Below are positions 7,139 to 33,702 of a stretch of DNA of 64,000 bases, piece after piece. The notes beneath the pieces were generated by a model, which did no database searches, was not told the origin of the DNA, and was given only the letters and a program-made list of their open reading frames with translations. The DNA is from Phellopilus nigrolimitatus (lineage: Eukaryota; Basidiomycota; Agaricomycetes; Hymenochaetales; Hymenochaetaceae). Position numbers and translations under genes: made by a program. The stretch covers positions 1,302,001 through 1,366,000 of the forward strand of contig JAJOHG010000004.1 of assembly GCA_021029095.1 (NCBI GenBank), given 5' to 3'. Each line of letters starts with the position of its first letter. Positions within the stretch are counted from its first letter, which is position 1.

Positions 7139-7200
7139 GTCACGAAACGTTCAAATCATCGCCAAGAGCGCGTCCTCCTCCGGCTCCTGTGGGATGGGTA
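7139..7200 (-). pseudogene. UBP8 3'-end remnant, array unit 1
   Basis: Reading the minus strand, the last codons before a TGA give EEDALLAMI, against EVEDALLAVI at the end of intact UBP8. The downstream bases also match the 3' flank of the copy near 14100. The sequence further upstream (to about 7675) is an open frame of 174 codons with no recognisable domain; I do not regard it as a confirmed gene. It is the outermost trace of the repeated unit on the left arm. Confidence 0.5.
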
Positions 7201-7729
7201 TCTGCGACCAGAAAGCACCCGCCGTGCAGGGCGAGGCCTCCCTCGAGATCTCTATAATTCCACACATGTACATGGGCCGGGCTTTGCCTATGATGGCGCA
7301 CTGAGGATATTCCGTCATCATGCAAAAGCGGTTCGTGCGGCACGGCAAACAGCCCCTACCGCCTGCTATGCTCGCCCGCGCACAACGCCGACAGCTTGAA
7401 GCGACAGACGGAGCATGCAGCAGCGGCCGCCCGCACAGGAGGCCCATGGCGTGCCTCAGGCGAGCGGGCCAGTCGACTCCCGGGTTCCCTATCCACCTCC
7501 CGCTCCAGCGCGCATACAGAATATTAATGTTTCGTATGCAGGCGTATATGCCATTGACGATCCAGCACGCGCCTTTTGCGAGGCAGTAGGCACTACGCAC
7601 CGTCCCGCACCGGACAGTTCTGGACAACGATCGAGCTGTTTGTGTAAAATTGGCGGAGGGGCAGGGAAGGCGCACGCGTGACCGCCTCGAATATCGAGGA
7701 ACACAAATTAGAGGCGAGGCGAGGCGAGG

Positions 7730-7970
7730 CCCGGGCCCTCTGTAGAAGACGGAGATAGCGGGCGGGGAAGGCGAGCAGTTGGAAAAGACAAAGACTCAAT
7801 GGGGAGAGAAAAATGAAGGATGTCGACGCGTGACGTGCGCCGCGTTCGTTCTCGTCGTTAAAATCGACGACATCGGCATATTGGAATAATGTGTATGCGT
7901 GAGGAGCCTGGAGCAAAAATGTGGCTCGTCGAGGCGCGGCAAACTCTGACCGTATGCGCCAACGCCAAAA
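7730..7970 (+). repeat. Copy of the region upstream of the isochorismatase-like gene
   Basis: This segment aligns by eye in the same orientation with about 17236-17450. Shared landmarks in order are GGGCCCT, GGAGATAG, a GGGAGAGA block, AAGGATG, CGACGACAT, GGAGCCTGGAGC and GCGCGGC. It directly abuts the 3' end of FB1. It is diverged and shows no coding sequence of its own. Confidence 0.55.
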
Positions 7971-7971
7971 T

Positions 7972-9804
7972 TCAAGGTGAAAAGCAATCAGTTCCAATAT
8001 TTCTAAGGAAACGAATGCATATTAGTCGACATCTCTGGCACGTTTGATGCGACCGTCTGCCACTTACCGGGCAGTCGAAAAGTAGACTATTGCGAAAGCT
8101 GGGAATCTCCGGCCTTTCGTACCAACTTACTCTGTCGCGCAAAAACGACTGCTCCAAATCTCTGAAGCCAGAGTTCCGCAGGATTTCGATGGACCCAGCA
8201 GACCTCGTCGCAAACACAGACGCAAAATCCTCCAAAGCCGCTGTATCCATGTGTGGGCAATCTGTGAGGCGAAGTGTCCGGAGTTGCGGAAGTCTGAGGT
8301 TTTTTCTGCGGTCGTCACCTCATTCGAGCCGGCCAGAGGCAAGGTCCCTCGAGCATAAGGTGCTCCAATTTGTCATAACGAAGAAGGATGGCAGTTGACG
8401 CGGTATAAATGGGCTGCTTGGTATCCACGGCAAGACTGAGCGTCTTCAAGGAATTTGATTTGAGGTCATACATAAGAAGCATGTGCAAGTCCTGTTCAGC
8501 GTCGAAATTATATCTCGCAAGTGAGAGATCAAGATGCAAAGTAAACTGTTCCACGTTAGGCGCTGTCAGTGCTCGACATATTTTCCGCGCAATCGGTGCC
8601 GAGTGGGAAGTGAGGCTGAGTGATTGGAGGTTAGGGAGATTGGCTTTGAACAGGTTTCCCTCGAAGTTGAACTCCCTCTCATCAAAGTCCCGAAGAGACA
8701 CTGAGAGATCCTGCAGGTTAGGCTGTGTATTGAGAAATCGTAGCAACATATTTAGTTCACCTTCCGTCCCCTCCGAAGTAAACTGGACGGTCGTTATAGT
8801 AGGTTTCCAACGCAGGTCAGAAGTGAGCTGAGTCCAAAGAGCGGTCTCCGGGACATGGCCTCTTAGATACACTGATGAAAGGCTTGGAAGCATCCATGTA
8901 CGGTAGAAATCAATCGTGCGACTGTCACCTTCTGCTAGACTGTATTCGTCTGCCGGAAGGTAGTCATCGATGATCGTCAAGGTAGTAAGAGAAAGGACTT
9001 CGAGACCGGTGGTCGCAGATCCAAGATTAATCAAGAAACCCTTGCGTTCCTCAAGAAATCCACTCAGACCCAAATCCACCAAGAACTTAAATTCCCCCCA
9101 TCGTACTTTGTGCTCAAGGACGATCTCAAGGAAGCTTCTCCGGAGTTCCTCAAAATCATCGCCTTTGTACGCAGAAAGTTCCACGGTCAGCCAACGATTC
9201 CCACTTCGAGCCAGGCGTAACCTCAGTTCCGCGGGGTTGTGAAGGTTTGATACGCGTGTCCATAGTTTTGGGAGGTTGAGAGCGATGGTGTGGAAGCGGC
9301 GGCACACGCGCGAGACGACGTTACAGAACTCTTCCTTTCCATGCTCGAGTTCTGCATCGCCACAGAGTTCGAAAATAGATCCCAGGATTTCGTCTGGCAG
9401 CTGCGACAAGCCGCGATGCTGAATAGCAGGTAAGGCTTCAGAGCGGAAAGCCTCGAGTTTGTGCTCGACATCGAGAAGCAAGGCGCTAAGAGTGTCGCGC
9501 GTATCCTTCAGGCAGGTTAGTGAAGACTGCGATGCTTCGACTGCTCGGTCAAGCTGCTGGTATTCGAGGCTGCATAAACCAATAAATAAATAAAAAAATA
9601 AAAAAATAAAAAAAAAAAAAAAAAAAAGAAAAAAAAAACTAAGCTCAGGCTCGAGAGAAGGGAATGGCTGGCTCACGTCGAGTCCCGTCCAGTTACCCAA
9701 CACTTCATTCCGTGTAGAGCACCTCTTTGAGACCTTAAGCGCGATAAAGCATTGGTTAGGTCGTCGAGTGACTTCACCGACACTGTATCCGAGTTTTCAG
9801 GCAT
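7972..9804 (-). pseudogene. F-box protein FB1, frame broken near its 3' end
   Basis: Array member closest to FB6. Exon 1 (9677-9804, 128 nt) starts MPENSDTVSVKSLDDLT; exon 2 starts at 9569 with EYQQLDRAVEASQSS, a heptad-like helical segment, then the F-box SQLPDEILGSIFELC and a long LRR-like region. The reading frame stops early at 8315 after EGPCLWP. The missing end is in another frame: DTAALEDFASVFATRS, SIEILRNSGFRDLEQSF and LRDRVSWYERP, down to 7972. Compared with FB6, bases are lost near 8325-8340. The intron 9570-9676 contains a 60-bp A-rich run on the plus strand. F-box proteins normally recruit substrates to SCF ubiquitin ligases; no target can be inferred. It may be a pseudogene or encode a truncated protein. 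Confidence 0.72.
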
Positions 9805-10178
9805 TGAGGAAATCCAAGAGTTTAGTAATAGCGGAAGCTAGGAAAGACAGGTATCCTAATGTGGAAATCCTCTTGAGACACAGCCACATCAAAAATAGTC
9901 ACGCTTGCTCGCGTTGACGAAGTTTCCCAAGCCACATCTGACTAAATCCTTACAAACCCATCATCACTGATTTCTACTCTAGAAATAATCTTCCTCGCTG
10001 TGGTCACCTTCCTTCCTTATCTTTGCTAATATGCTATGCCTCGACAGAACTTTACTATAAAACATCAAATACATGTATGTACAACCTTCATTCATTGATT
10101 CGTTAACAAATTCACTTCAAGCACACTCCCATACAATCCTTCAAATCCAGACAACTCCTATAGCTCTACATCCACATA
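9805..10178. other. FB1 upstream spacer
   Basis: No gene. It holds the FB1 5' flank and sequence shared with the spacer downstream of FB5 on the right arm (for example the CCACATC and GTGTCTCAA blocks near 9880 and 31740) and with 14160-14480 in unit 3. Confidence 0.45.
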
Positions 10179-10714
10179 CAGTCGAACCTCCCTTATTGCA
10201 TCTCTCTCATAGTGCATAACCTCCCATTATGCATAGATCCGGGTTTCCACCGGGTCGGTAGACAGAAAATCCCTATATGATAATGCATAAAATTATATAT
10301 GCATAACGCATAGCCAATTTGAGTAAATTAAATACGGATATGCAATATGCGAGGTCGGCTGCCATCGGGTTGTGACATTTTCACTGATTACTTTCTCCCT
10401 TTCTTCCGCATTTTTCCACCTATCAACGCTAGGACAAGGACTCGGCACACTCTCAATGCTCCTTCCGCAGGCCTACCTGTCCTTCTGGAGAACCCTGCAC
10501 TATCCACCAACTCAGAATGAATCATGCAAGTAGCTCACATAGAGAGCATTGTACAGCCGAATATCACACAGTTTTTTTTTTTCAGCTTAGGGATGTTATA
10601 GCAACCACATAATTACCATTACCTGATAAGTCAAGTTTCTCGTATGCATAAACCTCTGAATAAGCATAGACAGGACCTTCCACCGACCTCTATGCAATAT
10701 GGGAGGTTCGACTG
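10179..10714. mobile_element. MITE with TA target duplication (Tc1/mariner or pogo type)
   Basis: A 536-bp non-coding element bounded by inverted ends. The left end reads CAGTCGAACCTCCCTTATTG, and the right end is its near-perfect reverse complement (CAATATGGGAGGTTCGACTG). TA lies on both sides (10177-10178 and 10715-10716). Several GCATA motifs recur inside. No transposase frame is seen, so it would depend on an enzyme encoded elsewhere. Confidence 0.8.
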
Positions 10715-10719
10715 TATAC

Positions 10720-11036
10720 ATCCGCATCCACACATAGCATAAAACATGTAAAGAAATCGCCCCTAACGGCCCAAGAAAGCGTGTCGCATCCTTCTCGTGC
10801 TCCTTCTCGCAAAATCTTACAGACTCGTGCTTACCCATGAACTTGAATCTGGACGGCTTGCAGTCTCGATGACGCTCCATATTCACATAGTACCGCATGT
10901 ACGTGATGCACGCGCGCACCGTGTCCAGTGCCGAATGGGTCGCTTGGCAGTACGAATGGACGGGAAGGTCGTGTAACTGACTTGTCATCGTCAAAGCGAT
11001 ACCAACGACAAATCGTAAGTCAGCAATTACCTCCAA
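10720..11036 (-). pseudogene. UBP8 C-terminal remnant, array unit 2
   Basis: On the minus strand an open frame includes ATHSALDTVRACITYM, RYYVNMERHRDCKPSRF, KHESVRFCEKEHEKDA. These align with VTHAALATVLQSTAYM, CFYVKRQLDYKPQVV and AREHEAVREREKEREKEA of intact UBP8 (22250-22420). The frame runs on into the MITE at 10714, which supplies its last residues. There is no catalytic domain, so this is a gene fragment rather than a working protease. Confidence 0.72.
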
Positions 11037-11114
11037 TACATTTAATTTGAGTCAGCAACGGGGAAAACTAGGAAACGAATGCATATCAGTGACACGCTTC
11101 GTCTGACATGTCTG

Positions 11115-12846
11115 TCACATACTTGGTTTAGGAAAAAGTGTTTGATTCTTTATAAAAAACTTGGTACGTCCGGGCCTCTCGTACCAATCGACCTTGTCGC
11201 GCAAAAACGATTGTTCCAGATCTCTGCGTAAGCCAGGCTTTTCCACGATCTCGACCGACGCAGCCTCCCCGACCTCAGACCTCGTGCCAAACGCAGTGGC
11301 AAGCTTCTCCACGAAGAGCCCGTTCATTCGCGGGCAATCCGTCAGGCGAAGTGTCCGTAGATGCGGAAGTCTGTCACGTTTCTTTAAGTCGACCTGACCA
11401 CCGGGCGGCCAGAGATACGCTCCCTCAAGCGCAAGGTGTTCCAATTTGCCATAACTGTGAAGAATGGCATCCGAGGCAGTAAAAGGGGGCTGCTTGATAT
11501 CCCCCGTGACCGCAAGACTGAGCATTTTTAGGGAAGCTAATTTAAGCTCGAAGATAAGAAGCATGTACAAGTCGTTTTCAACATCATCATTATCTTCCGA
11601 GGCTGAAAGATCAAGATGCAAACAAAATCGTTCCACATTAGGTGCCATTAACGCACGACCTATTTTCCGCACCATCAGAGTCGAGTGCGAAGTGAAGCTG
11701 AGCGATCGGAGGTTTGGGAGATTAGCTATGGGGAAACCATCCTCGAAATTAGGTACGTCCTCGTTACCTCCCATAAGAGACACCGATAGATCCTGCAGGT
11801 TAGGCTGCGTGTTGAGAAATCGCAGTAACGTATCCAGCTCGTCTTCCATTCCACGCGAACGAAAGTGGACGGACGTTAGAAGAGGTTTCCAGCGTAGGTC
11901 GGAAGGAAGTTCAGTCCATAGCGCAGATCTGGGGACATGATAGCGCAAATGCACAGATGATAGGCTTGGAAGTTTCCATGACCAGAAGAATTCTGGAGTG
12001 AAGCCAGGTACTGAACGGAGGTCAGCTGGATAAACGCGATCATCGTTGATCGTCAAATCGGTGAGAGAAGGAAATTCGAGAAATTGGGTCGTAGACGTAA
12101 GATTGGAGAAGACCTCTCTACGTTTATCAGTCGACATATCTTCCCAGATCAAGAACTTGAACGCCCTCCACCGTTCTTTGTGCTCGAGGACGAGTTCGAA
12201 AAACTTTCCCCGGTGCTTTACGAAATCAGAGTGATTGCGCACGATTAGCTCCACGGTCAGCCAACAATTCTCGCTACGAGCCAGGCGTCGCTCCAATTCA
12301 GCGGGGCTGTGAAGATTTGATACCCGCGCCCATAGTTTTGGGAGCTTGAGAGCGATGGCGCGGAAGCGGTGACACACGCGCGAAATGATGTTGCAAAACC
12401 CTGCTGATTTATACTTGATTTCCCCGTCGTCACAAAGTTCGAAGATGGATCCCAGGATATCATCCGGCAGTTGCGCGAAGCCGTGATGTTGAATGGCAGG
12501 TAGAGCTTCAGCGCAATAAGCCTCGAGTTTGTGCTCGACATCGCGAAGCAGGACGCTAAGAGTGTCGCGCGTATTCTTCAGGCGGAATAGCGAAGACTTG
12601 GATGCTTCGACCGCTCTGTCAAGCTGCTTGTATTCGACACTGTATAGATATCGAGTAAAAACAAGTTTGAGCGATTGGGAGCTCGAGAAAAGGGGATGGC
12701 TGGCAGCCGCTGGCTCACGCTGAGTCCCATCCATTTATCCAACATTCCTTTCCGCGCAGAGCGCCTCCTTGGGCCTTCAAGCGCGACAATGCATCCGTTA
12801 GGTCGTCGAGTGCCTTCAGCGATACTGTATCCGGGTTTTCAGGCAT
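11115..12846 (-). CDS. F-box protein FB2 (array member)
   Basis: Intact two-exon gene: exon 1 12719-12846 and exon 2 11115-12639, joined in phase to 550 residues. Exon 1 encodes MPENPDTVSLKALDDL, then DALSRLKAQGGALRG and ECWINGWDS. Exon 2 begins with a helical, probably coiled-coil stretch (QLDRAVEASKSSLFRLK, then TLSVLLRDVEHKLEA), then the F-box AQLPDDILGSIFELC and SRVCHRFRAIALKLPKLW. The rest is about 380 residues of irregular leucine-rich repeats ending DKVDWYERPG. The start is fixed by the exon-1 layout shared by all six members. Its closest relative is FB5 on the opposite arm. Likely an SCF substrate adaptor by family; the substrate is unknown. A GTATGT donor-like site overlaps the stop region. 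Confidence 0.85.
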
Positions 12847-14096
12847 TGAGAGCTCGGGGATAGCGAGAGATTGATAAGAGGCAGGCTGCCACGAGGAAAA
12901 AAATTTCATGAAGGCATGTTAGGTAACGGCGATCGTGAGTTTAGACTCCGCCACGCATTCGTAAAAGGCTTTCGAGCCACATCTGGGGAGCGATGGCGTA
13001 GCTTTTCTCTGAACATACCGTCGTACTTCTCTGTCCGTCTGAAATGACGAATGCCGTAGTTAAAGCATGGTTTTGTTTTGGTTGCCTATTCATTCATTTG
13101 TCCATCGGCTTGCCTTTTGCCATCGCCGCTATGCAGATTCAACGACTTCGCTATGTAACAACGCGATTCTCAAGCTTTTTTGATTTTGCCCATTCTGGTG
13201 GCCGGGATGATACAAATATGCTAGTCATCGCGTTTCAGTGCGCTGGCTCGCCTATTGTGGTACAGAAATCTAGTTCTCTCGCACATGTTTCTTCCTCACA
13301 CATATCTGAATTGTTTGAATGGGCTTCACTCTTACTCTTATTCTTACATGGCTCGTCCAGCTGTTCGCTTGAGAAGGCTCCGGAGCTCGCGTACTCTTTT
13401 TATTCACTTCTGTCTTCGACTAAATCAGCCAGCATGTCGAACACGTTCATCTGGATTCCGACCGAGATGCGTGAAACACTGCTTCGAAAACTTCACAAAA
13501 AGCAAATTCACTCAGCAGACAAGCAAGATTGAGACATATTCAGAGCCTCAGCAGTGGAAAGCAATATAGAAAACAGCAAATGTGTCGTACAAATTCATTC
13601 GTAGCTTAGTATTGTATATGTATATCAAATAAAAGGATGTTGGGCGAGAAATTGATAGTTACCTAGATATAGCAGGTGCACTTTTATAGCTGCTGTACAC
13701 GCTGCATACTCATTCTAGGCATTTTTGTGTCGAATGACAAGGCGTAGAAGGCCTGAGCCGGCACATCCGACGTGCATCGAGACCTCGCTACGTCCGAGTC
13801 ACACCGTCAACCTAACTCGTCTCAATCTGACCGGCGACTGTCATTGTCCATGCAAAGACCTGGGTGTAATTCTGCAGACTACTGTAATTATGTTCAAAGA
13901 CATGTATATCGTTTCCCTCGGGCCGGTCATATTTTCTTCCGGAATCCTTTTCCGTGCACCGAAGCGTTTGAGTTTTCCAAAGACTTCTAAGGAGCTGTAG
14001 CGTCCGTTACTTACCCGCTCTTCACTTTCCGAGACATGTTAATAAATTCTCATAAGTTCATACACTTTCCGTTCGACCCCACATCCTCGCGCGCAA
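12847..14096. repeat. Array spacer (left arm), mirrored near 27850-28586
   Basis: No gene is supported. Bases 12950-13030 match, in reverse complement, the FB5 upstream region (28440-28530). Bases 13300-13720 match 27850-28420 in reverse complement, including the GCTTCGAAAACTTCACAAAA and CAGCAGACAAGCAA blocks. Bases 13070-13490 also resemble 16740-17110, so the spacer recurs once per unit. Position 13707-13708 is the empty site matching the transposon at 26173-27849. Confidence 0.6.
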
Positions 14097-14780
14097 CAAA
14101 ACGAAACGAAAGCGCTCAAATCACCGCGAGCAGCGCGTCCTCGACCTCCCTGATGCGTGCGAGAGTGAGAGCTTGGAAAGACAGGCATTCCCGGTTCAGG
14201 GAAAATCATGGTGGAAATCCTTACAGCATCAAGAAGTTGTCTTATTTAAACTCACTTTGACGAAGTTTTCCAAGCCACATCTGACTAGCGATTCCACATC
14301 ACTGATTTCTATTACAGAAAGGAGCTGCCTGTAATCACCTCCTTTTTCTCTTCCTTTCTTATGTCTGCTATATGTAACAGAGCACATCATATATGTACAA
14401 CCTTCATTCGTGAATCATCTGAAGATCCGTCAATAAACTCACTTTAAGTACCCTCACATACGATCCTTCAAATACAGGCAATCCCCATAGCTTAACGCGT
14501 CTACATGTTAAGAAATCGCCGCCAACGGCTCAACAAACGTGTCGCATCCTTCTCGTGCTCCTTCTCGCAAAATCTGACACTTGTGCTCGCGCACCAGCTT
14601 GAACGTGGGTAGCATGCAGTCTCAGTGGAATTCCGTAGAACTGCATGTATTTGGCGGACACGCGCACCCGGTTGAGTACTGAATGGCTCGGCATGACATG
14701 TGGACGGGAGGGTCGTGTAACTGACTTGTCATCTCAAAGCGATATCAACGACAAATCGCGCAGCAATCAACTCCAATACA
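14097..14780 (-). pseudogene. UBP8 3'-end remnant, array unit 3
   Basis: The minus strand carries two pieces. Near 14120-14165 the codons read RIREVEDALLAVI and stop, nearly the exact C-terminus of UBP8. Near 14560-14760 are decayed counterparts of the preceding exons (the ATCGCTTTGA block of WYRFD, then CACGAGAAGGATGC). About 390 bp lie between them; the sequence next to the tail resembles the promoter-proximal DNA of FB1 and FB6. Scattered stops show it is not functional. Confidence 0.7.
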
Positions 14781-14877
14781 TAAAATTTTAGAAACCTGAG
14801 CAAACGATTGCATATCAGTGATACGCTTGGTTCGATATGTCTGCCACATACCTGATCGTTGAGAACGTGTTTGATTG

Positions 14878-16563
14878 TTAAAACCGGGTACGTCCGGGCC
14901 TCTCGTACCAATCAACCTTGTCGCGCAAGCATGATTGTTCCAGATCTCTGCGTAAGCCAGACTTTCGGATGATCTCGACGGACCCAGCCTCCGCGATCTC
15001 AGACCTCGAGGCAAAAGCAGCGGCGAGCTCCTCTACGAACAGCGCCTCCATTCGCGGGCAATCCGTGAGGCGGAGTGTCCGTAATCGGGGGAGTCTGACG
15101 TGTTTTTCGGAGTCAACTCGATCATCGGGCGGCCAGAGATAGGGTCCCTCAAGTGCGAGGTGTTCCAATTTGTCATAATAGTGCAGGATGGCTTCCGAGG
15201 CAGTATAGTAGGGCCGCTTGGTATCCACGGTAAGGCTGAGTGTCTTCAGGGAAGCTGATTTGTGCTCATTCAGGAGCATGCTCAAGTCCTTCTCAGTATC
15301 ATTTTTATCTTCCTGGGGTGAAAGATCGAAATGCAGATAAAGCCGTTCCACGTTCGGCGTCACTAATGCATGACATAACCTCTGCGCCATCAGGGACGAG
15401 TAGGAAGTGAGGCTGAGCGATCGGAGGTTTGGGAGATTGGTTACGAACAAGTTTTCATCTAACTCTTCCTCGTTAACGTCCTCGGTTCCCCAAAGAGTCA
15501 CCGAGAGATCCCGCAGGTTAGGCTGTGTGCTGAGAAATCGCAGTAGCATATCCAGCTCTTCTTCAATTCCAAACGAACGAAAGTGGACGGACGTTAAGGT
15601 GGGTTTCCAGCGAAGGTCGGAAGGAATTTCAGTCCATAGCGCAGGTCTGGGGACATGATGGCCCAAATGCACAGATGACAGATTTGGAACTTTCCATGTC
15701 AAGTGGAATTCTGGAATGTTTCCATCTCCTGTGCGGTGGCCAGCTGCTGAAGCGCTTTGATCATCGTTGATCGTCAAGGTGGTGAGAGAAGGAAGTTCGA
15801 GACCAAGGGTAATAAGCATAAGATTAACCCAGACTTCGCTACGTTGCTTCAACGTCATCACGTCCCAGATAAAGAACTTGAACACCCTCCACCGTTCTTT
15901 GTGCTCGAGGACGAGTTCGAAAAACTTTACCCCGTGCTTTACGAAATCAGAGTGATTGTGCACGATTAACTCCACGGTTAGCCAACGATTTCCACTTCGA
16001 GCCAGGCGCAGCCTCAGATCCGCGGGGCTGTGTATATTTGACACGCGTGTCCACAATCTTGGGGATTTGAGGGCGATGGCGCGGAAGCGGCGACACACGC
16101 GCGAGACGACGTTACAGGACTCTTCCTTTCCACACTCGAGTTCTCCGTCGTCGCAGAGTTCGAAGATAGACCCCAGGATCTCATCTGGTAAATGAGCGAA
16201 GCCGTGATGCTGAATTACAGGTAAGGCTTTGGAGCGGAAAGCCTCGAGTTTGTGCTCGACATCGAGAAGCAAGGCGCTAAGAGTGTCGCGCGTATTCTTC
16301 AGGCGGATTAACGAAGACTGCGATGCTTCGACTGCTTGGTCAAGCTCCTGATACTCGACACTGTATATATATAGAGAGAGAGTAAAAGTAAGTTTGAGCG
16401 ATTGGGAGCTCGGGGGAACGGCATGGCTGGCTCACGCCGCGTCCTGTCCAGTTATCCAACACTCATTTCCGCACAGAGCGCCTCCCTGGGCCTTCAAGCG
16501 CGACAAAGCATCAGTGAGGTCGTCGAGTGCCTTCACCAGCACCGTGTCTGCTTTTCTGAGCAT
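14878..16563 (-). CDS. F-box protein FB3 (array member)
   Basis: Exon 1 16436-16563 (starting MLRKADTVLVKALDDL) and exon 2 14878-16360 join in phase to 536 residues. It has the shared layout: an N-terminal helical cap, a predicted coiled coil (ELDQAVEASQSSLIRLK), the F-box AHLPDEILGSIFELC at about residues 97-111, then leucine-rich repeats ending DKVDWYERPGRTRF. From about SVHLGHHVPRPALW onward it is nearly identical to FB4, while the preceding part differs clearly, which suggests gene conversion between the arms. The family suggests a Skp1-binding substrate receptor; the target is unknown. Confidence 0.84.
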
Positions 16564-17875
16564 CAAGAATACGCCGAGAGATCAGGGAAAGCGGGAGCTT
16601 GATGAGAGTTGAAGGATGCTTTGAGTTAGGCGCCCCCGAATGGAACGTCAATCTTTATTTCAGCCTCCGCGCCGCATTCGCGTAACTCCCGAGCCACATT
16701 TGACTACCGATGGCGCAACTTCCCATGGAGCATAGTGTAAGTCATGGTGAGGGAAGGATTTTGTTTTCTCCACATCTACCTGTGCCATATACCAACACGG
16801 TCCTCGGGATTTTTTTTTTTCATTCGCTCATTCTTATGTCGATATTATACATATCTGCTAGCAATTGCGTTCCAGCGCAGACTTTTCACATACGCCTTTT
16901 CCTCCCTCACTTCACAAAGCACCCTTGTTGAAAAATAAAACACCATTTTCCCTCTCCCTCACCCACATAAAACACTCAAGGTTTGCTTGACAAGGCTCCA
17001 GAGCTTACTCTTTTCCTTTCCCGTCTGTCTGCGACTAACAATAAAAAAAACACCAGCACATGGAGTAAGTTCGCCTGGATCCCATGACTGGAGAACGCCA
17101 TTCCAGACACCGGCAAATCGCAACTGCTACGCAAGAGGAAAATTCGATAGATCCCGTTATTGGTTATTGTGCAAAGACATGTACACTGTTTTCCTCCTCG
17201 AACGTCAAGAAACAAACTCTCATTGTCAATCTGGGCCCTGCCCCCCTCCGGAGGACGCGGAGATAGGGCCCGCGGGTGGGAAAACAAGGTCAGAATGGGA
17301 AGAGAGAAATAAAGGATGCGGGGAACGCTCGTTCCCGTCGATTGTAACGACGACATTGGTGCGTGCTGTTGCTTTTTATGGGAGCCTGGAGCGAGAACGT
17401 GGGCTTATCGAAGCGCGGCGAACTCGAAAATTGGCGTTAGACTTGTTGGCGATGCTCTCCTGAGAATGGGGAGTGTATTGCTGACTTAGAGGCGTGGCCG
17501 GGGTACGCTGCTTATCTCATGCCGCACGTCCTTCGGTGCACCATCCCGACATCTCGACCGTCGAGATCCCTGTGTCCGAGCCATCGCCGTCACCATCGTC
17601 GCTGCCAGCATCCCGCGCTTCCATTTCCCCCGTATGTACGCCTGTTGCAGCGCGCAGGCGCGCTCCGCGCCCACGGGCGGCTGATGCAGCGAGCCCGCAG
17701 GTCGGCGGCGAAGCGCAACGGCGCTCCACGGACCCTGTACGCGGGCTCTCAGCATGTCCTCCCCGCGCCGGATCTTGCAGCGCGTGGTATATTTACCGCC
17801 TGCCCTCCCCGTTCCTCATCGTCCCGACCGAACTCGCTCCCGCGCCTCCCCGTCCCCTCGTCTCCGCCACACCAC
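16564..17875. other. Spacer between FB3 and the isochorismatase-like gene
   Basis: No recognisable gene. Bases 16740-17110 resemble the spacer at 13070-13490, and 17236-17450 is copied at 7730-7970. An open frame continues upstream from the isochorismatase start to 17519, but its composition (Arg, Pro, Ser and His rich, no domain) does not support coding. This is the inner edge of the left arm. Confidence 0.45.
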
Positions 17876-23335: not shown

Positions 23336-25005
23336 ATGCGCACAAACGTGGATACAGTGTCGCTGAAGGCACTCGACGACCTAACCGGTGCCTTGTCGCG
23401 CTTGAAGGCCCAAGGAGGTGCTCTGCGCGGAAAGGAGTGTTGGATAAATGGATGGGACTCAGCGTGAGCCAGCTATTCCCTTCCCTCGAGTCTGAGATTA
23501 ATTTTCTTTGGTTTATGCAGCCTCGAATACCAGCAGCTTGAAAGAGTAGTCGAAGCATCGCAGTCTTCGCTAACCCGCCTGAAGGATACGCGCGACACTC
23601 TGAGCGTCCTGCTTCGCGATGTCGAGCACAAACTCGAGCTTTCCGCTCTGAAGCTCTACCTGCCATTCAGCACCATGGCTTCGCGCACCTGTCAGATGAG
23701 ATCCTGGGATCTATTTTCGAATTCTGTGACGACGGGGAAGAAGACGGGTATAAATCAGCACGATTCTGCAACGTCGTCTCGCGCGTGTGTCACCGCTTCC
23801 GCGCCATCGCTCTGAATCTCCCGAAACTGTGGGCGCGAGTATCAATCATTCACAGCCCCGCTGAACTGAAGCTGCGCCTGGCTCGTAGTCAGAATCGTTG
23901 GCTGACCGTGGAGTTAATTATAGACTATCACTCTGAATTCATAAAGTGCCGGAAAACGTTTTTCGAGCTCGTTCTCGAGCACAAAGAAAGATGGAAGGCG
24001 TTTAAGTTCATTGTCTGGGAAGGGATGACGGTGGAGCATCGTACCGAGGTCTTCACTAATCTTGCGTCTACGACCCAATTTCTTGAACTTCCTTCTCTCA
24101 CCGATTTGACGATCAACGATGATTACCGCGTTTCAGCATCTACCAACCGTACAGAAGGTGGCTTCATTCCAGAATTTTACCTGTCATGGAAACTTCCAAG
24201 CCTGTCATCTGTGCATTTGGGCCATCATGTCCCCAGACCTGCGCTATGGACTGAAATTCCTTCCGACCTACGCTGGAAACCCACCTTAACGTCCGTCCAC
24301 TTTCGTTCGTTTGGAATTGAAGAAGAGCTGGATATGCTACTGCGATTTCTCAGCACACAGCCTAACCTGCGGGATCTCTCGGTGACTCTTTTGGGAACCG
24401 AGGACGTCAACGAGGAAGAGTTAGATGAAAACTTGTTCGTAACCAATCTCCCAAACCTCCGATCGCTCAGCCTCACTTCCTACTCGTCCCTGATGGCGCA
24501 GAGGCTATGTCATGCATTAGTGATGCCGAACGTGGAACGACTTTATCTACACTTCGATCTTTCACCCCCGGAAGATAAAAATGATACTGAGAAGGACTTG
24601 AGCATGCTCCTGTTTGAGCACAAATCAGCTTCCCTGAAGACACTCAGCCTTACCGTGGATACCAAGCGGCCCTACTATACTGCCTCGGAAGCCATCCTGC
24701 ACTATTATGACAAATTGGAACACCTCGCACTTGAGGGACCCTATCTCTGGCCGCCCGATGATCGAGTTGACTCCGAAAAACACGTCAGACTCCCCCGACT
24801 ACGGACACTCCGCCTCACGGATTGCCCGCGAATGGAGGCGCTGTTCGTAGAGGAGCTCGCCGCTGCTTTTGCCTCGAGGTCTGAGATCGCGGAGGCTGGG
24901 TCCGTCGAGATCATCCGAAAGTCTGGCTTACGCAGAGATCTGGAACAATCATGCTTGCGCGACAAGGTTGATTGGTACGAGAGGCCCGCGCGTACCCGGT
25001 TTTAA
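23336..25005 (+). pseudogene. F-box protein FB4, one-base deletion before the F-box
   Basis: Exon 1 (23336-23463) starts MRTNVDTVSLKALDDL; exon 2 runs 23521-25005. The total of 1613 nt is one short of a multiple of three. The loss is visible at about 23637: GAGCTTTCC here against GAGGCTTTCC in FB3 and FB6. Upstream the frame reads LEYQQLERVVEASQSS and LLRDVEHKLE; downstream, in the shifted frame, it reads AHLSDEILGSIFEFC and the whole leucine-rich region to DKVDWYERPARTRF. The 3' two thirds are nearly identical to FB3, while the part just after the F-box resembles FB2 and FB5. It is either a recent pseudogene or a sequence error, because the rest of the frame is clean. Confidence 0.75.
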
Positions 25006-25870
25006 CAATCAAACACGTTCTCAACGATCAGGTATGTGGCAGACATATCGAACCAAGCGTATCACTGATATGCAATCGTTTGCTCAGGTTTCTAAAATTT
25101 TATGTATTGGAGTTGATTGCTGAATCGCGATTTGTCGTTGATATCGCTTTGAGATGACGAGTCAGTTACACGACCCTCCCGTCCACATGTCATGCCAAGC
25201 GACCATTCAGTACTCAATTGGGTGCGCGTGTCCGCCACGTACATGCGGTTCTGCGGAATGTCACTGAGACTGCAAACTACCCACATTCAAGTTCGTGGGT
25301 GAGCACGAATGTCAGATTTTGCGAGAAGGAGCACGAGAAGGATGCGGCACTTTGTTGAGCCGTTGGCGGCGATTTCTTCACATGTAGATGCGTTAAGCTA
25401 TGTGGGTTGCCTGTATTTGAAGGATCGTATGTGAGAGTACTTAAAGTGAATTTATTGACGGATCTTCAGATGATTCATGAATGAAGGTTGTACATGTACA
25501 TGTATGATGTGGCATAGGCATAATAGCAGACATAAGAAAGGAAGAGAAAAAGGAGGTGATTACAGGCAGATTCTTTCTGTAATAGAAATCAGTGATGTGG
25601 AATCGCTAGTCAGCTGTGGCTTGGAAAACTTCGTCAAAGTGAGTTTAAATAAGACAACTTCTTGATGTGGCTGCGGGGATTTCCACTATGATTTTCCTCA
25701 ACCGGAAATGCCTGTCTTTCCAAGCTCTCGTTATTGCTAAACTCTTGCGCGCATCAAGGAGGTCGAGGACGCGCTGATCTGAGCTTTTTCGTTTCGTTTT
25801 GTTGCGCGCGAGGATGTGGGGCGTTGGCGGGTCGAACGGAAAGTGAATGAATTTATTAACATGTCTCGGA
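25006..25870 (+). pseudogene. UBP8 3'-end remnant, array unit 4
   Basis: Mirror copy of the unit-3 remnant. Bases 25128-25370 hold decayed forms of the exon encoding WYRFD, the following intron (GTCAGTTACACG) and the charged helix (GAGAAGGAGCACGAGAAGGA). About 360 bp later, 25745-25781 read LARIKEVEDALI and stop. The intervening DNA ends GCTAAACTCTTG, the same bases that precede the FB1 and FB6 start regions. The FB4 3' intron-like stretch (GTATGTGGCAGACAT to TTTGCTCAG) leads into it. Confidence 0.7.
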
Positions 25871-26380
25871 AAGTGAAGAGCGGGTAAGTAACGGACGCTA
25901 CAGCTCCTTGGAATCCTTTGGAAATCTCAAACGCTTCGGCGCACGGAAAAGGAGCTCGGAAGAAAATATGACCGACCTGAGGGAAACAATGTACATGTCT
26001 TTGAACATAATTACAGCTGTCTGCAGAATTGCACACAGCTCTTTGCATAGATAATGACACTCGCCGGTCAGATTGAGACGGATTGGGTTGACGTCGTGGA
26101 CGTAGCGAGGTCTCGACGCACGTCGGATGTACCGGCTCAAAGCGTCTACGCCTTGCTATTCGACGATGAGTACAGTTGATTATCTCATAATGCATACGCT
26201 CGTTCCAAGAATTCCTATGCATTAATAGATATTATGCAATAGTAAGTACGTTTAAATAATTTTTAAATAATTTAAATAATATATTTCTTGTTTATACAGA
26301 GTGACTAAGCTTGATACCAGCCGAATATGGCATATTATGTCATGACAGAACCATAGAAAATCCGAAACTTACACCTTTTA

Positions 26381-26800
26381 GGGCCTGCTCGGCCCCAGGA
26401 GTTGCGCAGTCAACGCTTGGGTTGGCCAAGTGACGAGCCCTAGTCACAATTCTTTTATATAAGCATTTTGATGCGCTAGCTTTATTTGGATACGGATCAG
26501 CAGGGTATTTCCCTTCACAGTTGAGGAAAAATGATCGTGGAAGTGCCGCACTTCGGCGAACAAATCACGCTGTGATTGCCTTATGGAGGTAGAATGACTG
26601 CCCAACTTGAAGCTGTAACGGCGTGATTTGTTCGCCGATTATGCCGTATGACACAGCTTCCTATATAGAAATTTTAGACGCGGCAAGTGACATAAGATAC
26701 TACAACTGGCCAAACCATCAGATCGGGATTTGTGACTAGAGTCCGTCACTCCGAGCCAACCCAAGCGTTGACTGCGCAACTCCTGGAGCCGAGCAGGCCC
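26381..26800. mobile_element. Nested MITE with TTA target duplication (PIF/Harbinger type)
   Basis: A 420-bp element with inverted repeats of about 65-70 bp, starting GGGCCTGCTCGGCCCCAGGA and ending in the near reverse complement. TTA sits on both sides (26378-26380, 26801-26803), the usual PIF/Harbinger target, and GGGCCTG-type ends also fit. An exact 18-bp inverted repeat lies inside (26553-26570 against 26621-26638). It has no coding capacity. Confidence 0.8.
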
Positions 26801-26810
26801 TTAAAGCGTA

Positions 26811-27606
26811 CAGTCATTCACCGGTCAATGGGACATGAAATCGCCATCGCGAACTCAGCCAGATTTTGCCCCTTTTTCACAAAATAAAAACGGATGACAG
26901 GTAAACAGACTACTGTAGAACATCCTCGCAGAATTTCGTATAAAAATAAGGAGAAATGAAAGAGGTATGGTAAAAACAAAAAGCTGTGACGTTTTTGTTC
27001 CTCACCGCTCAATGGGACAGTAGTTTTCCCACGACCCTGACCACAGTAGTAGAGTAACTACGAGTGATACCGACCACCAGATGATATGGTAAGTGCATGT
27101 ACTGGTAGCTACAGATGTACTCTTCGTTAATATGCTTTTAACCATGTATTTGTATTGTGCCAAGTAATTAAATTGTCTTCGAAGTCATCTAGGACACCTA
27201 TGGGACTTCTGTAACACCTGTGACCTGTTGATAGGATAGTGCATATATACTGTCATTCTCAAGATAGGTTCAAATTCTCCTTCACATAATATCATTTTAT
27301 GTTTAGAAGATATTCTCCTCTCATTATATGAAAAAATAAGTGCTGGTTCAAAGGGAGAAAATGTGTGCGGAAGGCAGAATGTATTATGTCACACCAAGTT
27401 GCAGTTACCATTTTAGTACACTTTGACAGTATTTTGAGCATTTCTCAAGTAATACTGAGCCTGGCTGGCTCACACTTGGTAGACAGTACTTTAGTATGTA
27501 TTGAAGCTCGAAATCGCAAAAACTGAATTAAAAAACGGTCGAGAAATGGGTGTTTAAGGCGGGTGTCCCATTGACCGGTGGTGTCCCATTGACCGGTGAA
27601 TGACTG
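26811..27606. mobile_element. Nested MITE with TA target duplication
   Basis: A 796-bp element whose ends are exact inverted repeats CAGTCATTCACCGGTCAATG plus GGA, with TA at 26809-26810 and 27607-27608. The GTCCCATTGACCGGTG unit is doubled at the right end (about 27573-27599), and a variant recurs at 27004-27018. No transposase is seen. It lies 10 bp from the Harbinger-type element, inside the larger transposon. Confidence 0.8.
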
Positions 27607-27849
27607 TAATCCTGGAACTCTGTCCCCGAAGTAACAGTTTTATAGCAGTGTGGGATGTATTTTCAAAAACTTGGAGCTCAAACTTTTTAGAATTGCCTAT
27701 ATATCTATGCATAAATCTCAAATTTCTTATGCAATATTAAATAGTAGATTTTTTGCATATTTTGGCTGGGACGAGGTCGGTTTCTGGATTTTTGATGTAT
27801 TATTAGATATTATGCATTAGTAGCTTATGCATTATGAGATAATCAACTG

Positions 27850-28586
27850 TATGCAGCATATACATCAGCGAAAAAAGAGTGCTCCTGTTATATCCAGGTA
27901 ACTATTAATTTCTTGCCCAACATCCTTTTATTGGATGTACAATACTAAGCTACGAATGGATTTGTGCGGCACAATTGCTGTTTCTAAATTGATTGCATAC
28001 CGCTGATGCTCTGAATATGTCTCAATATTGCTTGTCTGCTGAGTGAATTTGCTTTTTGTGAAGTTTTCGAAGCAGTGTTTCCCGCATCTCGTCAGGTCCC
28101 AATTACAATGCCAACTTACTTTATCTCAACTTGCCCCGCGACTGTGCAAACAGTTGTGGTATCTGACTTTGAAATATTTTGCCCTCGCACAACGGCCGGA
28201 ACTTGCAAGTGTCTGCGGAATGGCGTTCTCCGATCGGGATCCAGATGAACATGCTCGAGGTGCTGGCGTTGTTCTAGTCGAAGACAAAAGAAGGGAGTGA
28301 AAAGAGTACGCAAGCTCCGGAGCCTTCTCAAGTGAACAGCTGGACGAGGTATGTAAGAATAAGCGCAAGAGTGAAGCCCATTCAAACAATTCAGATGTGT
28401 GTAATGCACAGAGAAGTACGACGGTATACTCAGAGAAAAGCTACGCCATCGGTGGCCAGATGTGGCTCGAGTGCCTTTTGCGAACGCGTGGCGGAGTCTA
28501 AACTCACGCCATTACATAACATGCATCCATGAAGATTTTTTCCTGTCTGATTTCTCCAGCTCTTATCAAGCTCTCGGGTCTCTTCA
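27850..28586. repeat. Array spacer (right arm), mirror of 12850-13710
   Basis: Reverse complement of the left-arm spacer: shared blocks include CTTGCCCAACATCC, GCTACGAATG, GCTTGTCTGCTGAGTGAATT and GTTTTCGAAGCAGTGTTT. The part next to FB5 (28440-28530) matches the FB2 upstream region. Only short broken frames are present. Confidence 0.6.
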
Positions 28587-30305
28587 ATGCCTGGAAACCC
28601 GGATACAGTGTCGCTGAAGGCACTCGACGACCTAACGGATGCATTGTCGCGCTTGAAGGCCCAAGGAGGCGCTCTGCGCGGAAAGGAGTGTTGGATAAAT
28701 GGATGGGACTCAGCGTGAGCCAGCCATCCCCTTTGCTCGAGCTCCCAATCGCTCAAACTTGATTTTACTCGATATCTATACAGTGTCGAATACCAGCAGA
28801 TTGACAGAGCGGTCGAAGCATCCAAGTCTTCGCTAACCCGCCTGAAGAATACGCGCGACACTCTGAGCGTCCTGCTTCGCGATGTCGAGCACAAACTCGA
28901 GGCTTATCGCGCTGAAGCTCTACCTGCCATTCAACATCACGGCTTCGCGCAACTGCCGGATGATATCCTGGGATCCATCTTCGAACTTTGTGACGAGGAA
29001 ATCAGGTATAAATCAGCAGGGTTCTGCAACGTCATCTCGCGCGTGTGTCGCCGCTTCCGCGCCACCGCTCTCAAGTTCCCAAAACTATGGGCGCAGGTAT
29101 CAAATCTTCACAGCCTCGCCGAATTGGAGCGACGCCTGGCTCGTAGCGAGAATTGTTGGTTGACCGTGGAGTTAATCGTGCACAATCTCTCTGATTTCGT
29201 AAAGCACCGGGGAAAGTTTTTGGAACTCGTCCTCGAGCACAAAGATCGGTGGAGGGCGTTCAAGTTCTCTATCTGGGAAAATATGATAATTGTTACACGT
29301 AGAGAGGTCCTGGCTAATCTTACGTCTACGACCCAATTTCTCGAATTTCCTTCTCTCACCAATTTGACGATCGACGATGATCGCATTTCAGTAATTAGCT
29401 TCCGTCCAATACCTGGCTGCACTCCAGAATTCTTCTGGTCATGGAAACTTCCAAGCCTATCATCTGTGCATTTGGTCAATCATATCCCCAGACCTGCGCT
29501 ATGGACTGAACTTCCTTCCGACCTACGCTGGAAACCTCTTCTAACGTCCGTCCACTTTCATTCGCGTGGAATCGAAGGCGAACTGGATATCTTGCTACGG
29601 TTTCTCAACACGCAGCCTAATCTACAGGATCTGTCGGTGTCTCTCTTGGGACGTAACGAGGATGTACTTAACTTCGAGGATGATTTCTCCATAGCTAATC
29701 TCCCAAACCTCCGATCGCTCAGCTTCACTTCGCACTCGACCCTGATGGTGCGGAAAATAGGTCGTGCGTTAATGGCGCCTAATGTGGAACGATTTTGTTT
29801 GCATCTTGATCTTTCAGCCTCGGAAGATAATGATGATGTTGAAAACGACTTGTACATGCTTCTTATCTTCGAGCTTAAATTAACTTCCCTAAAAATGCTC
29901 AATCTTGCGGTCACGGGGGATATCAAGCCGCCCCCTTTTACTGCCTCGGATGCCATTCTTCACAGTTATGGCAAATTGGAACATCTTGCGCTTGAGGGAG
30001 CGTATCTCTGGCCGCCCGGTGGTCAGGTCGACTTAAAAAAACGTGACAGACTTCCTCATCTACGGACACTTCGCCTGACGGATTGCCCGCGAATGAACGC
30101 GCTCTTCGTGGAGAAGCTTGCCACTGCGTTTGGCACGAGGTCTGAGGTCGGGGAGGCTGCGTCGGTCGAGATCGTGGAAACGCCTGGCTTATGCAGAGAT
30201 CTGGAACGATCTTTTTTGCGCGACAAGGTCGATTGGTACGAGAGGCCCGGACGTACCAAGTTTTTTATAGAGAATCAAACACTTTTCCGAAAACCAAGTA
30301 TGTGA
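28587..30305 (+). CDS. F-box protein FB5 (array member)
   Basis: Exon 1 28587-28714 (MPGNPDTVSLKALDDL, ECWINGWDS) and exon 2 28784-30305 join in phase to 549 residues. Exon 2 begins with the coiled-coil-like QIDRAVEASKSSLTRLK, then the F-box AQLPDDILGSIFELC, then SRVCRRFRATALKFPKLW. Leucine-rich repeats follow with PNLRSLSFTS and LEHLALEGAYLWPP and the shared end DKVDWYERPG. FB2 is the closest relative and lies at the mirror position on the other arm. The intact frame suggests a functional gene; the substrate is unknown. Confidence 0.85.
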
Positions 30306-30389
30306 CAGACATGTCGAACGAAGCGTATCACTGATATGCAGTCGTTTGCCTAGTTTTCCCCGTTGCTGACTCAAATTAAATGTATTGGA

Positions 30390-30660
30390 GGTAATTGCTG
30401 ACTCACGATTTGTCGTTGGTATCGCTTTGACGAAGACAAGTCAGTTACACGACCTTCCCGTCCATTCGCTGTGCCAAGCGACCCATTCAGCACTGGACAC
30501 GGTGCGTGGGCGCATCACGTACATGCAATACTATGTGAATATGGAGCGTCACTGAGACTGCAAGCCGCTCACATTCAAGTTCGTGGGTGAACACGAGTCT
30601 GTCAGATTTTGCGAGAAGGAGGACGAGAAGGATGCGTCACGCTTCCTTGGGCTGTTGGCG
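30390..30660 (+). pseudogene. UBP8 3'-end remnant, array unit 5
   Basis: The bases GGTATCGCTTTGACGAAGA correspond to WYRFDED, followed by intron-like GTCAGTTACACG and then an exon trace (CACATTCAAGTTCGTGGGTG, then GAGAAGGAGGACGAGAAGGA). These follow UBP8 22146-22420 in order. A TGA interrupts the frame and no catalytic part is present. The terminal EVEDALL piece is missing here. Confidence 0.68.
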
Positions 30661-30711
30661 GCGATTTCTTTGCATGTAGACGCGTAGAGCTATAAAGGTT
30701 ATCTGGATTTA

Positions 30712-31210
30712 CAGCTGTTTGCAAAAATAATGGCAGTCACGGGTCAGATCGAAATGGAGGTAATCGGACTTAGCCAAAATTCGATGAGCGTCGACAACGC
30801 ACGTTTGCTCGCATACACTGACCGGCATGTTATGCTACGGTCTTTTCATAACATCTGAGCTTGTCCTCTGTCAGTGCAAACCTGCAAGCTAATATATGAG
30901 GAAAATAATCAACGATATAGACAGCAGGTGTAGCTTATACGTTTGTAGTGCAGTTGTGATTCGATTTACTTAGGGATAGGGCCGACACGATTCATTTTAT
31001 CTCTTGAACACTCTGCGAGCATATCTTAGTACAATATATATATATATATATATCATTTTGTCAGTCAATAACCCGCTGAAAGTCGATCTAAAACGCTGTT
31101 GCGAGCAAACGATTCAGCGGTACACTGACGACACGTCAAATTTTGGCTAAGTCCGATTACCTCTTCATTTCGATCTGATCCGCAACTGCCATTGTTTCTG
31201 CAAACAGCTG
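30712..31210. mobile_element. MITE with TA target duplication and long imperfect inverted ends
   Basis: A 499-bp element. The ends are CAGCTGTTTGCAAAAATAAT and its imperfect reverse complement, with similarity continuing about 110 bp inward. TA flanks it at 30710-30711 and 31211-31212. The sister unit near 25410-25425 lacks it, reading TGTATTTGAAGGATCGTATG where this copy has the insertion. A (TA)n run sits near 31033-31053. No coding capacity. Confidence 0.75.
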
Positions 31211-31236
31211 TAAAGGATTGTGTGGGAGTGTATTTA

Positions 31237-31550
31237 CAGCCGTTTTCATAACTATGCGGAATCGCAAAAAATCTCGCGCCGCCTCGCCACCGGCTGCGTG
31301 ACAAATATACTCGCACGATCCTATCATCTAAGCATTTGCCGGTGTGCCGAGTTCCCGGATCAGGCTGTATCTGGTTGCCGAACGTTTGGATCAGATTGCA
31401 TCAAGCTTTCTGCCTTCTTCGAAGAAAACAAACGCATGCCGAAGCTCGGATCATCTCACTTCATCTTTGTAACACGGTCGTGGGACCGAGTGTGTCATCT
31501 TTTAGGTGGCGTGGGTGGCGCACGGATTTTCGTAGTTATGAAAAGCGCTG
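31237..31550. mobile_element. Second short MITE with TA target duplication
   Basis: A 314-bp element with inverted ends CAGCCGTTTTCATAACTA and its near reverse complement, with TA at 31235-31236 and 31551-31552. The empty site is visible in the sister unit at about 25440 (GAGAGTACTTAAAGTGAATT). It starts only 26 bp after the preceding MITE ends. Confidence 0.72.
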
Positions 31551-31779
31551 TAAAGTGAATTTATTGTCGGATCTTTGAATGACTCATGAAGAAGGTCGTA
31601 CATATGTATATGACGTTTTGGAGTAAAACTCTGTTACGGCCATAATAGCAAACATGAACGTTAGACCATCGCTAGCCAGATGTGGCTTCGGATACCTCGT
31701 CAACGAGTACAGACCAAGCGTGACCAAAACATCGATGTGGCTGTGTCTCAAAGGGGATTTCTATGATTTCGCGAATGCC

Positions 31780-31855
31780 TACGATACGGGTACGTGACCG
31801 TACCGTACCGTACCGTATTTCGTATATACGGGTACGTTGCGGAGCCCTACTTCCT
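31780..31855. repeat. Short tandem repeat with ACCGT units
   Basis: ACCGT units are repeated about four times near 31797-31817 and flanked by inverted GGGTACGT copies. It lies just upstream of FB6 and is absent from the FB1 upstream region. Confidence 0.55.
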
Positions 31856-31890
31856 AGCTCCCGCAATTGCTGAACTTTTGGATTTCCTTA

Positions 31891-33597
31891 ATGCCTGAAA
31901 ACTCGGATACAGTGTCGGTGAAGGCACTCGACGACCTAACCAATGCTTTGTCGCGCTTGAAGGCTCAAGGAGGCGCTCTGCGCGGAAATGAGTATTGGAT
32001 AAATGGACGGGACTCCGCGTGAGCCTTCCCTCGAGCATCCAGTAGTCTGAGCTTACCTTTCTTTGATTTATGCAGCCTCGAGCATCAGCAGCCTGACAGA
32101 GCAGTCGAAGAATCCCAGTCTTCGTTAATCCGTCTGAAGAAAACGCGCGACACTCTTAGCGTCCTGCTTCGCGATGTCGAGCACAAACTCGAGGCTTTCC
32201 GCTCGAAAGCCTTACCTGCTATTCAGCATCGCGGCTTATCAGAGCTGCCAGACGAAATTCTGGGATATATTTTCGAACTCTGTGGCGATGCAGAACTCGG
32301 GCATGGAAAGGAAGAGTTCTGTAACGTCGTCTCGCGCGTGTGCCGCCGCTTCCGCACCATCGCTCTCAACCTCCCAAAACTATGGACACGCGTATCAAAC
32401 CTCCACAACTCCGCGGAACTGAGGTTGCGCCTGGCTCGAAGTGGGAATCGTTGGCTGACCGTGGAGCTTTCTGCGTACAAAGGCGATGATTTTGAGGAAC
32501 GCTGGAGAAGCTTCCTTGAGATCGTCCTTGAGCACAAAGTACGATGGAGGGGGTTTAAGCTCTTGATGGATTTGGGTCTGAGTGAATTTCTTGAGGAACG
32601 CAAGGATTTTTTGGTTAATCTTGGATCTGCGACCACCGGTCTCGAAGTCCTTTCTCTTACTACCTTGACGATCATCGATGGCTACATTCCGGCAGACGAA
32701 TACAGTCTAGAAGAAGATGACAGTCGCACTATCGATTTCTACTGGACATGGAAGCTTCCAAGTCTTTCGTCACTGTATCTAGGAGGCCATGTCCCGGAGA
32801 TCGCTCTTTGGACTGAGTTCACTCCTGACCTGCGTTGGAGACCTACGATAACGACCGTCCAGTTTACTTCGGAGGGGACGGAAGGCGAGCTAAATATGTT
32901 GCTGCAATTTCTCAACACACAGCCTAACCTGCGGGATCTTTCGGTGTCTCTTTCGAGAGACTGGGAAGCTGATGCGGAAGAGCATAACTTCGAGGATGAT
33001 TTGTTCATAGCCAATCTCCCAAACCTCCGATCACTCAGCCTCACTTCCCACTGGGTACGGGTTGCGCGGGAAATATGTTGTGCTCTGAAAGCGCCTAACG
33101 TGGAACAATTTACTTTGCATCTTGATCTTTTCCTCTCGGAACATAATTTCGACGCTGAACGGGAGTTGTACATGCTTCTTATGTATGACCTCAAATCAGT
33201 TTCCTTGAAGACGCTCAGTCTTGCCGTGGATACAAAGCAGCCCTCCATCACCGCGTCAACCGCAATCCTGCTTCGTTATGACAAACTGGAACATCTTGTG
33301 CTCGAGGGACCCTGTCTCTGGCCGCCTCAGATTGGGCTACGAGGTGGCGACCGCAGAAAAACCATCAGACTTCCGCAACTCCGGACACTTCGCCTCACAG
33401 ATTGCCCACACATGGATACGGCGGCTTTAGAGAATTTTGCGTCTGTGTTTGCGACGAGGTCTGCTGGGTCCATCGAAATCCTGCGGAACTCTGGCTTCAG
33501 AGATTTGGAGCAGTCGTTTTTGCGCGACAGAGTAAGTTGGTACGAAAAGCCGGACATACGCAGCTTTAATGGCAATTTACGTTTCGACAACCCGTAA
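31891..33597 (+). CDS. F-box protein FB6 (array member)
   Basis: Exon 1 31891-32018 (MPENSDTVSVKALDDL) and exon 2 32076-33597 join in phase to 549 residues. It has the shared helical N-terminus (EESQSSLIRLKKTRDTLS), the F-box SELPDEILGYIFELC and SRVCRRFRTIALNLPKLW. The leucine-rich region has TGLEVLSLTTLTIID, PNLRSLSLTSHWV and DCPHMDTAALENFAS, ending DRVSWYEKP. FB1 is its mirror partner but has lost frame, so FB6 is the intact version of this subtype. The stop is followed by a GTAAGT donor-like site and a TTACTTAG acceptor-like site, so an additional exon is possible. Confidence 0.85.
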
Positions 33598-33702
33598 GTG
33601 GCAGACGTTCGCGCTAAACGTGCCAGAAAAGTCAACTAATATGCACCCGTTTACTTAGAAATATTGGAGCCGATTGTTGGATGTGGGCATAGTGAATGCC
33701 AC

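Follow-up and report, generated by a model that had tools for sequence, protein, structure and literature searches.

How did six F-box genes of the fungus Phellopilus nigrolimitatus come to stand in mirror image around a block that holds HUS1 and a UBP8-type ubiquitin protease gene, and how much of that mirror was made by duplication? The genes, FB1 to FB6, lie in a window of 64,000 nucleotides, the whole stretch of DNA analysed here (positions 1,302,001-1,366,000 of contig JAJOHG010000004.1, assembly GCA_021029095.1); all coordinates are positions in this window unless a contig is named. The contig measures 1.53 Mb and the assembly 56.4 Mb in 635 contigs. In an extract of PMC10410303 the species appears among the saprophytic Hymenochaetales, with a genome of 56.7 Mb in 696 contigs. 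A literature search brought up no paper apparently describing the F-box/HUS1/UBP8 locus of this species. The window represents haplotype 1 (suffix w), and two further contigs represent haplotype 2 (suffix h). We consider it probable that a tandem F-box array beside UBP8 was copied in inverted orientation, that the two arms were then patched by gene conversion, and that FB4 was lost from haplotype 2.

Mirrored arms around the core

The comparison of the window with itself by BLAST gave a left arm (7985-16609, minus strand) with FB1, FB2 and FB3, and a right arm (23286-33676, plus strand) with FB4, FB5 and FB6. The arms match along antidiagonals in three blocks: 13729-16609 with 26164-23286 (87.3% over 2927 columns), 10744-13034 with 30677-28408 (92.0%) and 7985-9844 with 33676-31851 (86.0%). 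Long F-box matches off the mirror axis reach 71-80%. The spacers are mirrored as well, in two colinear matches, 13463-13709 with 28091-27849 (86.4%) and 13298-13464 with 28402-28231 (86.6%). The initial annotation had described this arrangement, with three genes on each strand reflected about a core, two exons per gene and spacers alike in reverse complement, and had named a dotplot devoid of antidiagonals as the finding that would speak against it. The antidiagonals are there, the spacers match as proposed, and all six genes consist of two exons and carry a GTGAGC donor. The core had been put at 5-6 kb; it exists, but measures about 6.7 kb. The locus therefore has the two inverted arms and the unique spacer of an inverted repeat, together with patches whose identity between arms exceeds that of the rest. 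Near-identity throughout the arms was not found in the self-BLAST, where the blocks stand at 86-92%.

Mosaic structure of the F-box genes

In the whole-gene tree (IQ-TREE), FB2/FB5 and FB3/FB4 each pair with support 100, FB1 and FB6 stand apart from the rest (100), and no split of FB1-3 from FB4-6 is seen. The mirror-wise relatedness claimed from the start, FB1 with FB6, FB2 with FB5 and FB3 with FB4, thus holds for whole genes, but not for their halves. With the 5' half alone (columns 163-1100), FB4 groups with FB2/FB5 (support 99); with the 3' half (columns 1117-2069), it joins FB3w within the FB3 alleles (support 98). Since FB4 changes its partner between the two halves, part of the mirror would have been made by later conversion. 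Among the 55 pairs that can be formed from the 11 F-box sequences of both haplotypes, FB3w-FB4w rises from 78.6% identity in the 5' half to 98.5% in the 3' half and FB3h-FB4w from 78.6% to 96.4%, and the largest rise among the other 53 is that of FB6w-FB6h, from 86.4 to 94.2. From these sequence patterns we infer that the strength of the FB3-FB4 pairing is due to gene conversion and not to the inverted duplication alone.

The tract concerned lies in FB3 at 14767-15667 (minus strand) and is 93-100% identical to FB4 in each block of 100 columns; when the columns were permuted, none of 500 shuffles reached its score. Between 15660 and 15085, FB4 is tied to FB3w at 27 sites and to FB3h at 8, and in the adjoining FB4-flank tract (14670-14322, minus strand) 34 sites agree with the FB3h flank and 0 with the FB3w flank. 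Other patches cross between arms and haplotypes. In blocks starting from 9508 to 9108, FB6w is 91-97% identical to FB1w and 77-91% to its own allele FB6h, and a gap of 13 bp is common to FB1w and FB6w and found in neither FB1h nor FB6h. Likewise, the flanks of FB2h and FB5w agree at 98-100% over 11110-10744, with FB2w-FB2h at 85-97%.

The second haplotype and the absence of FB4

Haplotype 2 is covered by contig C494 (14738 bp), which corresponds to window 6805-22097, and contig C404 (18406 bp), which corresponds to 22098-44820. The end of one and the start of the other abut to the base on the window (22097/22098); as they are nevertheless separate contigs, their phase is assumed. The identity between haplotypes is 96.1% across 10744-22097 and 96.6% in the right flank, falling to 92.0% at FB1, 94.3% at FB5, 89.1% at FB6 and 88.3% in the first 452 bases of C404.

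FB4 is absent from haplotype 2, where C404 runs from the UBP8 3' end directly into the spacer that precedes FB5, so that haplotype 1 has six F-box genes and haplotype 2 five, four of them open in both. The junction falls at the true UBP8 3' end (22416-22457, plus strand), a piece that is repeated in both arms: between FB3 and FB2 at 14116-14157 (minus strand, 92.9% over 42 bp) and between FB4 and FB5 at 25749-25782 (plus strand). On the coding side of UBP8 the junction is 95.6% identical (324/339) to haplotype 1. Past the stop codon it is 91.9% identical (91/99) to the sequence that follows the right tail fragment and 61.5% (59/96) to the haplotype-1 UBP8 3' untranslated region (UTR). Had the two direct copies recombined in an ancestor resembling haplotype 1, just such a junction would be expected, and hence FB4 was probably deleted at the repeated piece of the UBP8 end.

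Degenerate remnants of the UBP8 C-terminal coding sequence, with moderate support, lie behind FB2 (10779-11018, minus strand, tblastn 39%) and FB5 (30409-30642, plus strand, tblastn 41%). Without composition correction each has an E value of 4e-10, against 0.023 for the best match in reversed sequence; with the correction, reversed sequence gives no match. Weak DNA matches, such as 7649-7946 with 17159-17425 (60%), were not relied on, because the same search on reversed sequence also yields 15 matches.

Origin of the array

In the account that we favour, a small tandem array of F-box genes with leucine-rich repeats (LRR) would have grown beside UBP8, with fragments of the UBP8 3' end in its units. 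A section of this array would have been copied, inverted, to the far side of the isochorismatase-HUS1-UBP8 core. Thereafter, non-crossover gene conversion, both inside one haplotype and from one haplotype to the other, would have moved patches between the arms: FB3 would have overwritten the 3' half of FB4, some stretches would have become common to FB6 and FB1, and FB2 and FB5 would have come to have flanks in common from one haplotype to the other. The removal of FB4 from haplotype 2, with the UBP8 end left intact, would most likely be due to recombination of the true UBP8 3' end with the fragment nearby. In each arm the UBP8-tail fragments share the orientation of the F-box genes, but the UBP8 gene itself has its end on the right-hand side; for this reason the simplest order runs from a right array to a left inverted copy. 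The coding remnants behind FB2 and FB5, although weak, agree with this order.

Several observations weigh against parts of this account. The four-sequence site counts are arm-wise, 126 versus 1 and 0 for FB1/FB6 and 88 versus 0 and 0 for FB2/FB5; since they favour plain orthology along the arms, conversion can only have been patchy. A tree of just the first 400 columns places FB4 outside the FB2/FB3/FB5 group (support 82), which indicates that its 5' half is itself mixed. In the permutation, the allelic pairs FB6w-FB6h and FB5w-FB5h also score 0/500, and for this reason permutation alone cannot separate conversion from uneven rates. For the tract at 14670-14322, it could instead be the FB3 flank of haplotype 1 that changed; in the assembly no close donor of that flank (14310-14690) was found, its own allele or its mirror giving the best match at 89-90%. 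The composition-corrected UBP8 coding remnants are weak, with E values of 5e-4 (FB2) and 0.007 (FB5). Finally, haplotype 1 may have gained FB4, and with it a diverged UBP8 3' UTR, a less simple course than loss of the gene.

The model of the initial annotation, a single inverted duplication of a finished three-gene array, agrees with a whole-gene tree that follows the mirror, with colinear spacers and with site counts that are mostly arm-wise. If nothing but point divergence had followed, however, FB3-FB4 identity would not be expected to jump from 78.6% to 98.5% in the middle of the gene, the tree would not differ between gene halves, and the 13-bp gap would not be common to FB1w and FB6w. 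The model is contradicted for FB3/FB4, and in this strict form we regard it as improbable. The inverted duplication itself is upheld by the mirrored spacers and the whole-gene tree, but part of the mirror would be the work of later conversion. For FB4, no later conversion would be needed if the inverted copy had begun inside FB3 and joined a resident right-arm 5' half, making FB4 a breakpoint chimera, and the main change of affinity in FB4 is indeed one mid-gene step. Yet the FB3-like part of FB4 is 93-100% identical per block and 98.5% overall, compared with 92% and 86% in the two remaining mirrored gene blocks, and so looks younger than the arms, and the 3' half of FB4 is nested within the FB3 alleles; we therefore judge such a chimera to be unlikely.

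The remaining explanations concern the arms themselves. A folding of two haplotypes head to head in the assembly would also give a mirror, and such a fold may exist elsewhere, as on contig C157, where inverted stretches are 96-97% identical, about the allelic level. The arms at our locus, in contrast, differ by 8-14%, compared with about 4% for the alleles of core and flank. Moreover, haplotype 2 independently places each arm next to its own unique flank and the expected core edge. We rejected the artefact on these grounds and consider it most improbable. The arms could also serve as a recombination switch, inverting the core and altering the expression of HUS1/UBP8 or of the array, since kilobase-size inverted repeats bracket the core and patches are exchanged between them. 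However, an inverted core was looked for between the haplotypes and none was found: the orientation relative to the unique flanks is the same in 2 of 2, a sample too small to rule out flips elsewhere, so that the flip suggested in the initial annotation is unsupported and a switch seems very unlikely. The region of C157 used here for contrast (about 300-410 kb, L026-L029) is another F-box cluster, with one stretch of 747 columns at 83%; it is a large palindrome of recent origin or else an assembly fold-back of haplotypes.

The F-box genes and their products

Frameshift and open-frame calls were read from the assembly sequence. FB2 (11115-12846, minus strand, 550 amino acids), FB3 (14878-16563, minus, 536 amino acids, 537 in haplotype 2), FB5 (28587-30305, plus, 549 amino acids) and FB6 (31891-33597, plus, 549 amino acids, 554 in haplotype 2) are open in both haplotypes, the alleles of FB6 being merely 90.4% identical. 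FB1 (8315-9804, minus, 460 amino acids) encodes an F-box-like protein with a 3' frameshift, and FB1h, with a 14-bp gap, stops after 65 amino acids. FB4 (23336-25005, plus), present in haplotype 1 only, has a 1-bp frameshift and reads 140 amino acids to the first stop. Neither the two frameshifts nor the absence of FB4 from haplotype 2 had been recognised in the initial annotation. The public models differ from this plain reading: that of FB4 skips the frameshift region, and that of FB1 extends into an end resembling the UBP8 C-terminus (EEDALLAMI, window 7080-7190). This last segment, which lies outside the left arm, may be one more remnant of the UBP8 tail, the DNA match being weak.

In seven allelic and mirrored pairs of open genes, the ratio of nonsynonymous to synonymous divergence (dN/dS) is 0.37-0.75, and the open genes accordingly look constrained. 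Codons 181-270 show an excess of amino-acid changes over the rest of the gene in FB2w/FB5w (P 0.008) and FB3w/FB2w (P printed as 0.000), P values that are optimistic because this segment was picked after the tree results; no significant excess was found in the allelic pairs of FB3 (P 0.467) and FB6 (P 0.094). Positive selection in these codons was considered and rejected, since the proportion of nonsynonymous differences does not significantly exceed the synonymous one in any of four pairs (P 0.172, 0.138, 0.701 and 0.894). We claim uneven constraint alone.

FB1, FB3 and FB6 exceed the cut-off of the F-box-like family PF12937 (24.3 bits). The predicted structure alternates strands and helices, and its PDB matches are mostly LRR proteins, MAX2 and TIR1 among them. 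On the strength of the F-box-like domain and these fold matches to a low-confidence model, the intact proteins may act as substrate receptors of Skp1-Cullin-F-box (SCF) ubiquitin ligases. This assignment has its own weak points: FB2 (24.0 and 23.8), FB5 (22.1) and the annotated FB4 (21.4) fall just below the cut-off, the model confidence is low (pLDDT, the predicted local distance difference test, 59.5), and Pfam LRR_4 appears below cut-off only.

In searches of the genome itself (78 of 161 candidates scored), the close family is confined to this locus, its second haplotype and one fragment on contig C168; the next near-full-length F-box relatives have 30-32% amino-acid identity, and short partial matches at most 41%. 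A search for related proteins returned five, all from P. nigrolimitatus, among the 7997 candidates scored, those sharing most words, a limit from which absence of the family elsewhere does not follow. The fragment on C168 (12001-22000, L025, at 4602-5456) is an 855-bp piece of FB6 exon 2 with sharp ends, 97.3% identical to the window copy; it sits in a 345-amino-acid open frame at another locus and looks like a captured gene fragment.

Core genes and insertions

Both named core genes proved to be as first identified. The exons of HUS1 span 18907-19810 (minus strand; Pfam PF04005 above cut-off), and the 3' part of UBP8, from the UCH exon to the stop codon, occupies 20959-22457 (plus); domain and protein matches place it as a UBP8-type ubiquitin protease. 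A third core gene, missing from the initial annotation, encodes an isochorismatase-like hydrolase (17519-18523, plus; Pfam PF00857, E 1.6e-19, with PDB sequence matches). Several other loci (L003, L004, L005, L007 and others) contain pieces of UBP8 and of HUS1, the latter in some cases with stop codons. Three HUS1-bearing copies (on contigs C445, C71 and C112) have a common non-core flank that recurs on further contigs, a pattern that would fit the capture of part of HUS1 by a mobile repeat.

The right arm also contains a nested insertion of 1.7 kb (26171-27851, no strand assigned) with 30-bp inverted ends, present in haplotype 1 only and likewise missing from the initial annotation; more than 30 matches to an 800-bp element within it occur across the assembly, some of which may be allelic. 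Two further short insertions, likewise with inverted ends, are found at 10170-10743, in haplotype 1 only, and in the opposite arm at 30708-31214, in both haplotypes.

Significance and comparison with known systems

The two haplotypes together reveal the building, patching and pruning of an inverted array of genes that adjoins HUS1 and UBP8. Conversion can account for part of a mirror that is seen in a dotplot or whole-gene tree, and half-gene trees and the other haplotype help to distinguish conversion from duplication. At loci of this kind, gene number, intactness and the public gene models should be checked for each haplotype. The arms might even be a cassette store, in which F-box receptors exchange their LRR-bearing halves through conversion between arms and haplotypes; this is a doubtful proposal, which if true would mean ongoing new specificities, as in gene families of recognition or conflict.

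Rozen et al. reportedly described arm-to-arm gene conversion in primate Y-chromosome palindromes in 2003. It is likewise related in extracts of two other papers (PMC3388347, PMC3308322). As portrayed there, these palindromes resemble our locus in their inverted gene-bearing arms, unique spacer and patches copied between arms; they differ in that the Y arms are near-identical, whereas those of P. nigrolimitatus are 86-92% alike, exchange here also crosses haplotypes, and some copies are broken or lost. The human "Flowers", according to an extract of a study of repeats longer than 50 kb (PMC3388347), are multigene families in adjacent tandem and inverted repeats. They share with our array the mixed repeats, the conversion within a cluster and the pseudogenes beside intact copies; the array differs from them in consisting of fungal F-box genes and in having arms of about 9-10 kb. 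As regards the proteins, the predicted order of an F-box-like domain followed by an LRR-like solenoid is that of the F-box/LRR proteins TIR1 and MAX2, with 12-16% identity to the three recognisable F-box entries among the listed matches of a low-confidence model. The array is thus a well-resolved and instructive example of known processes, and not a new kind of system.

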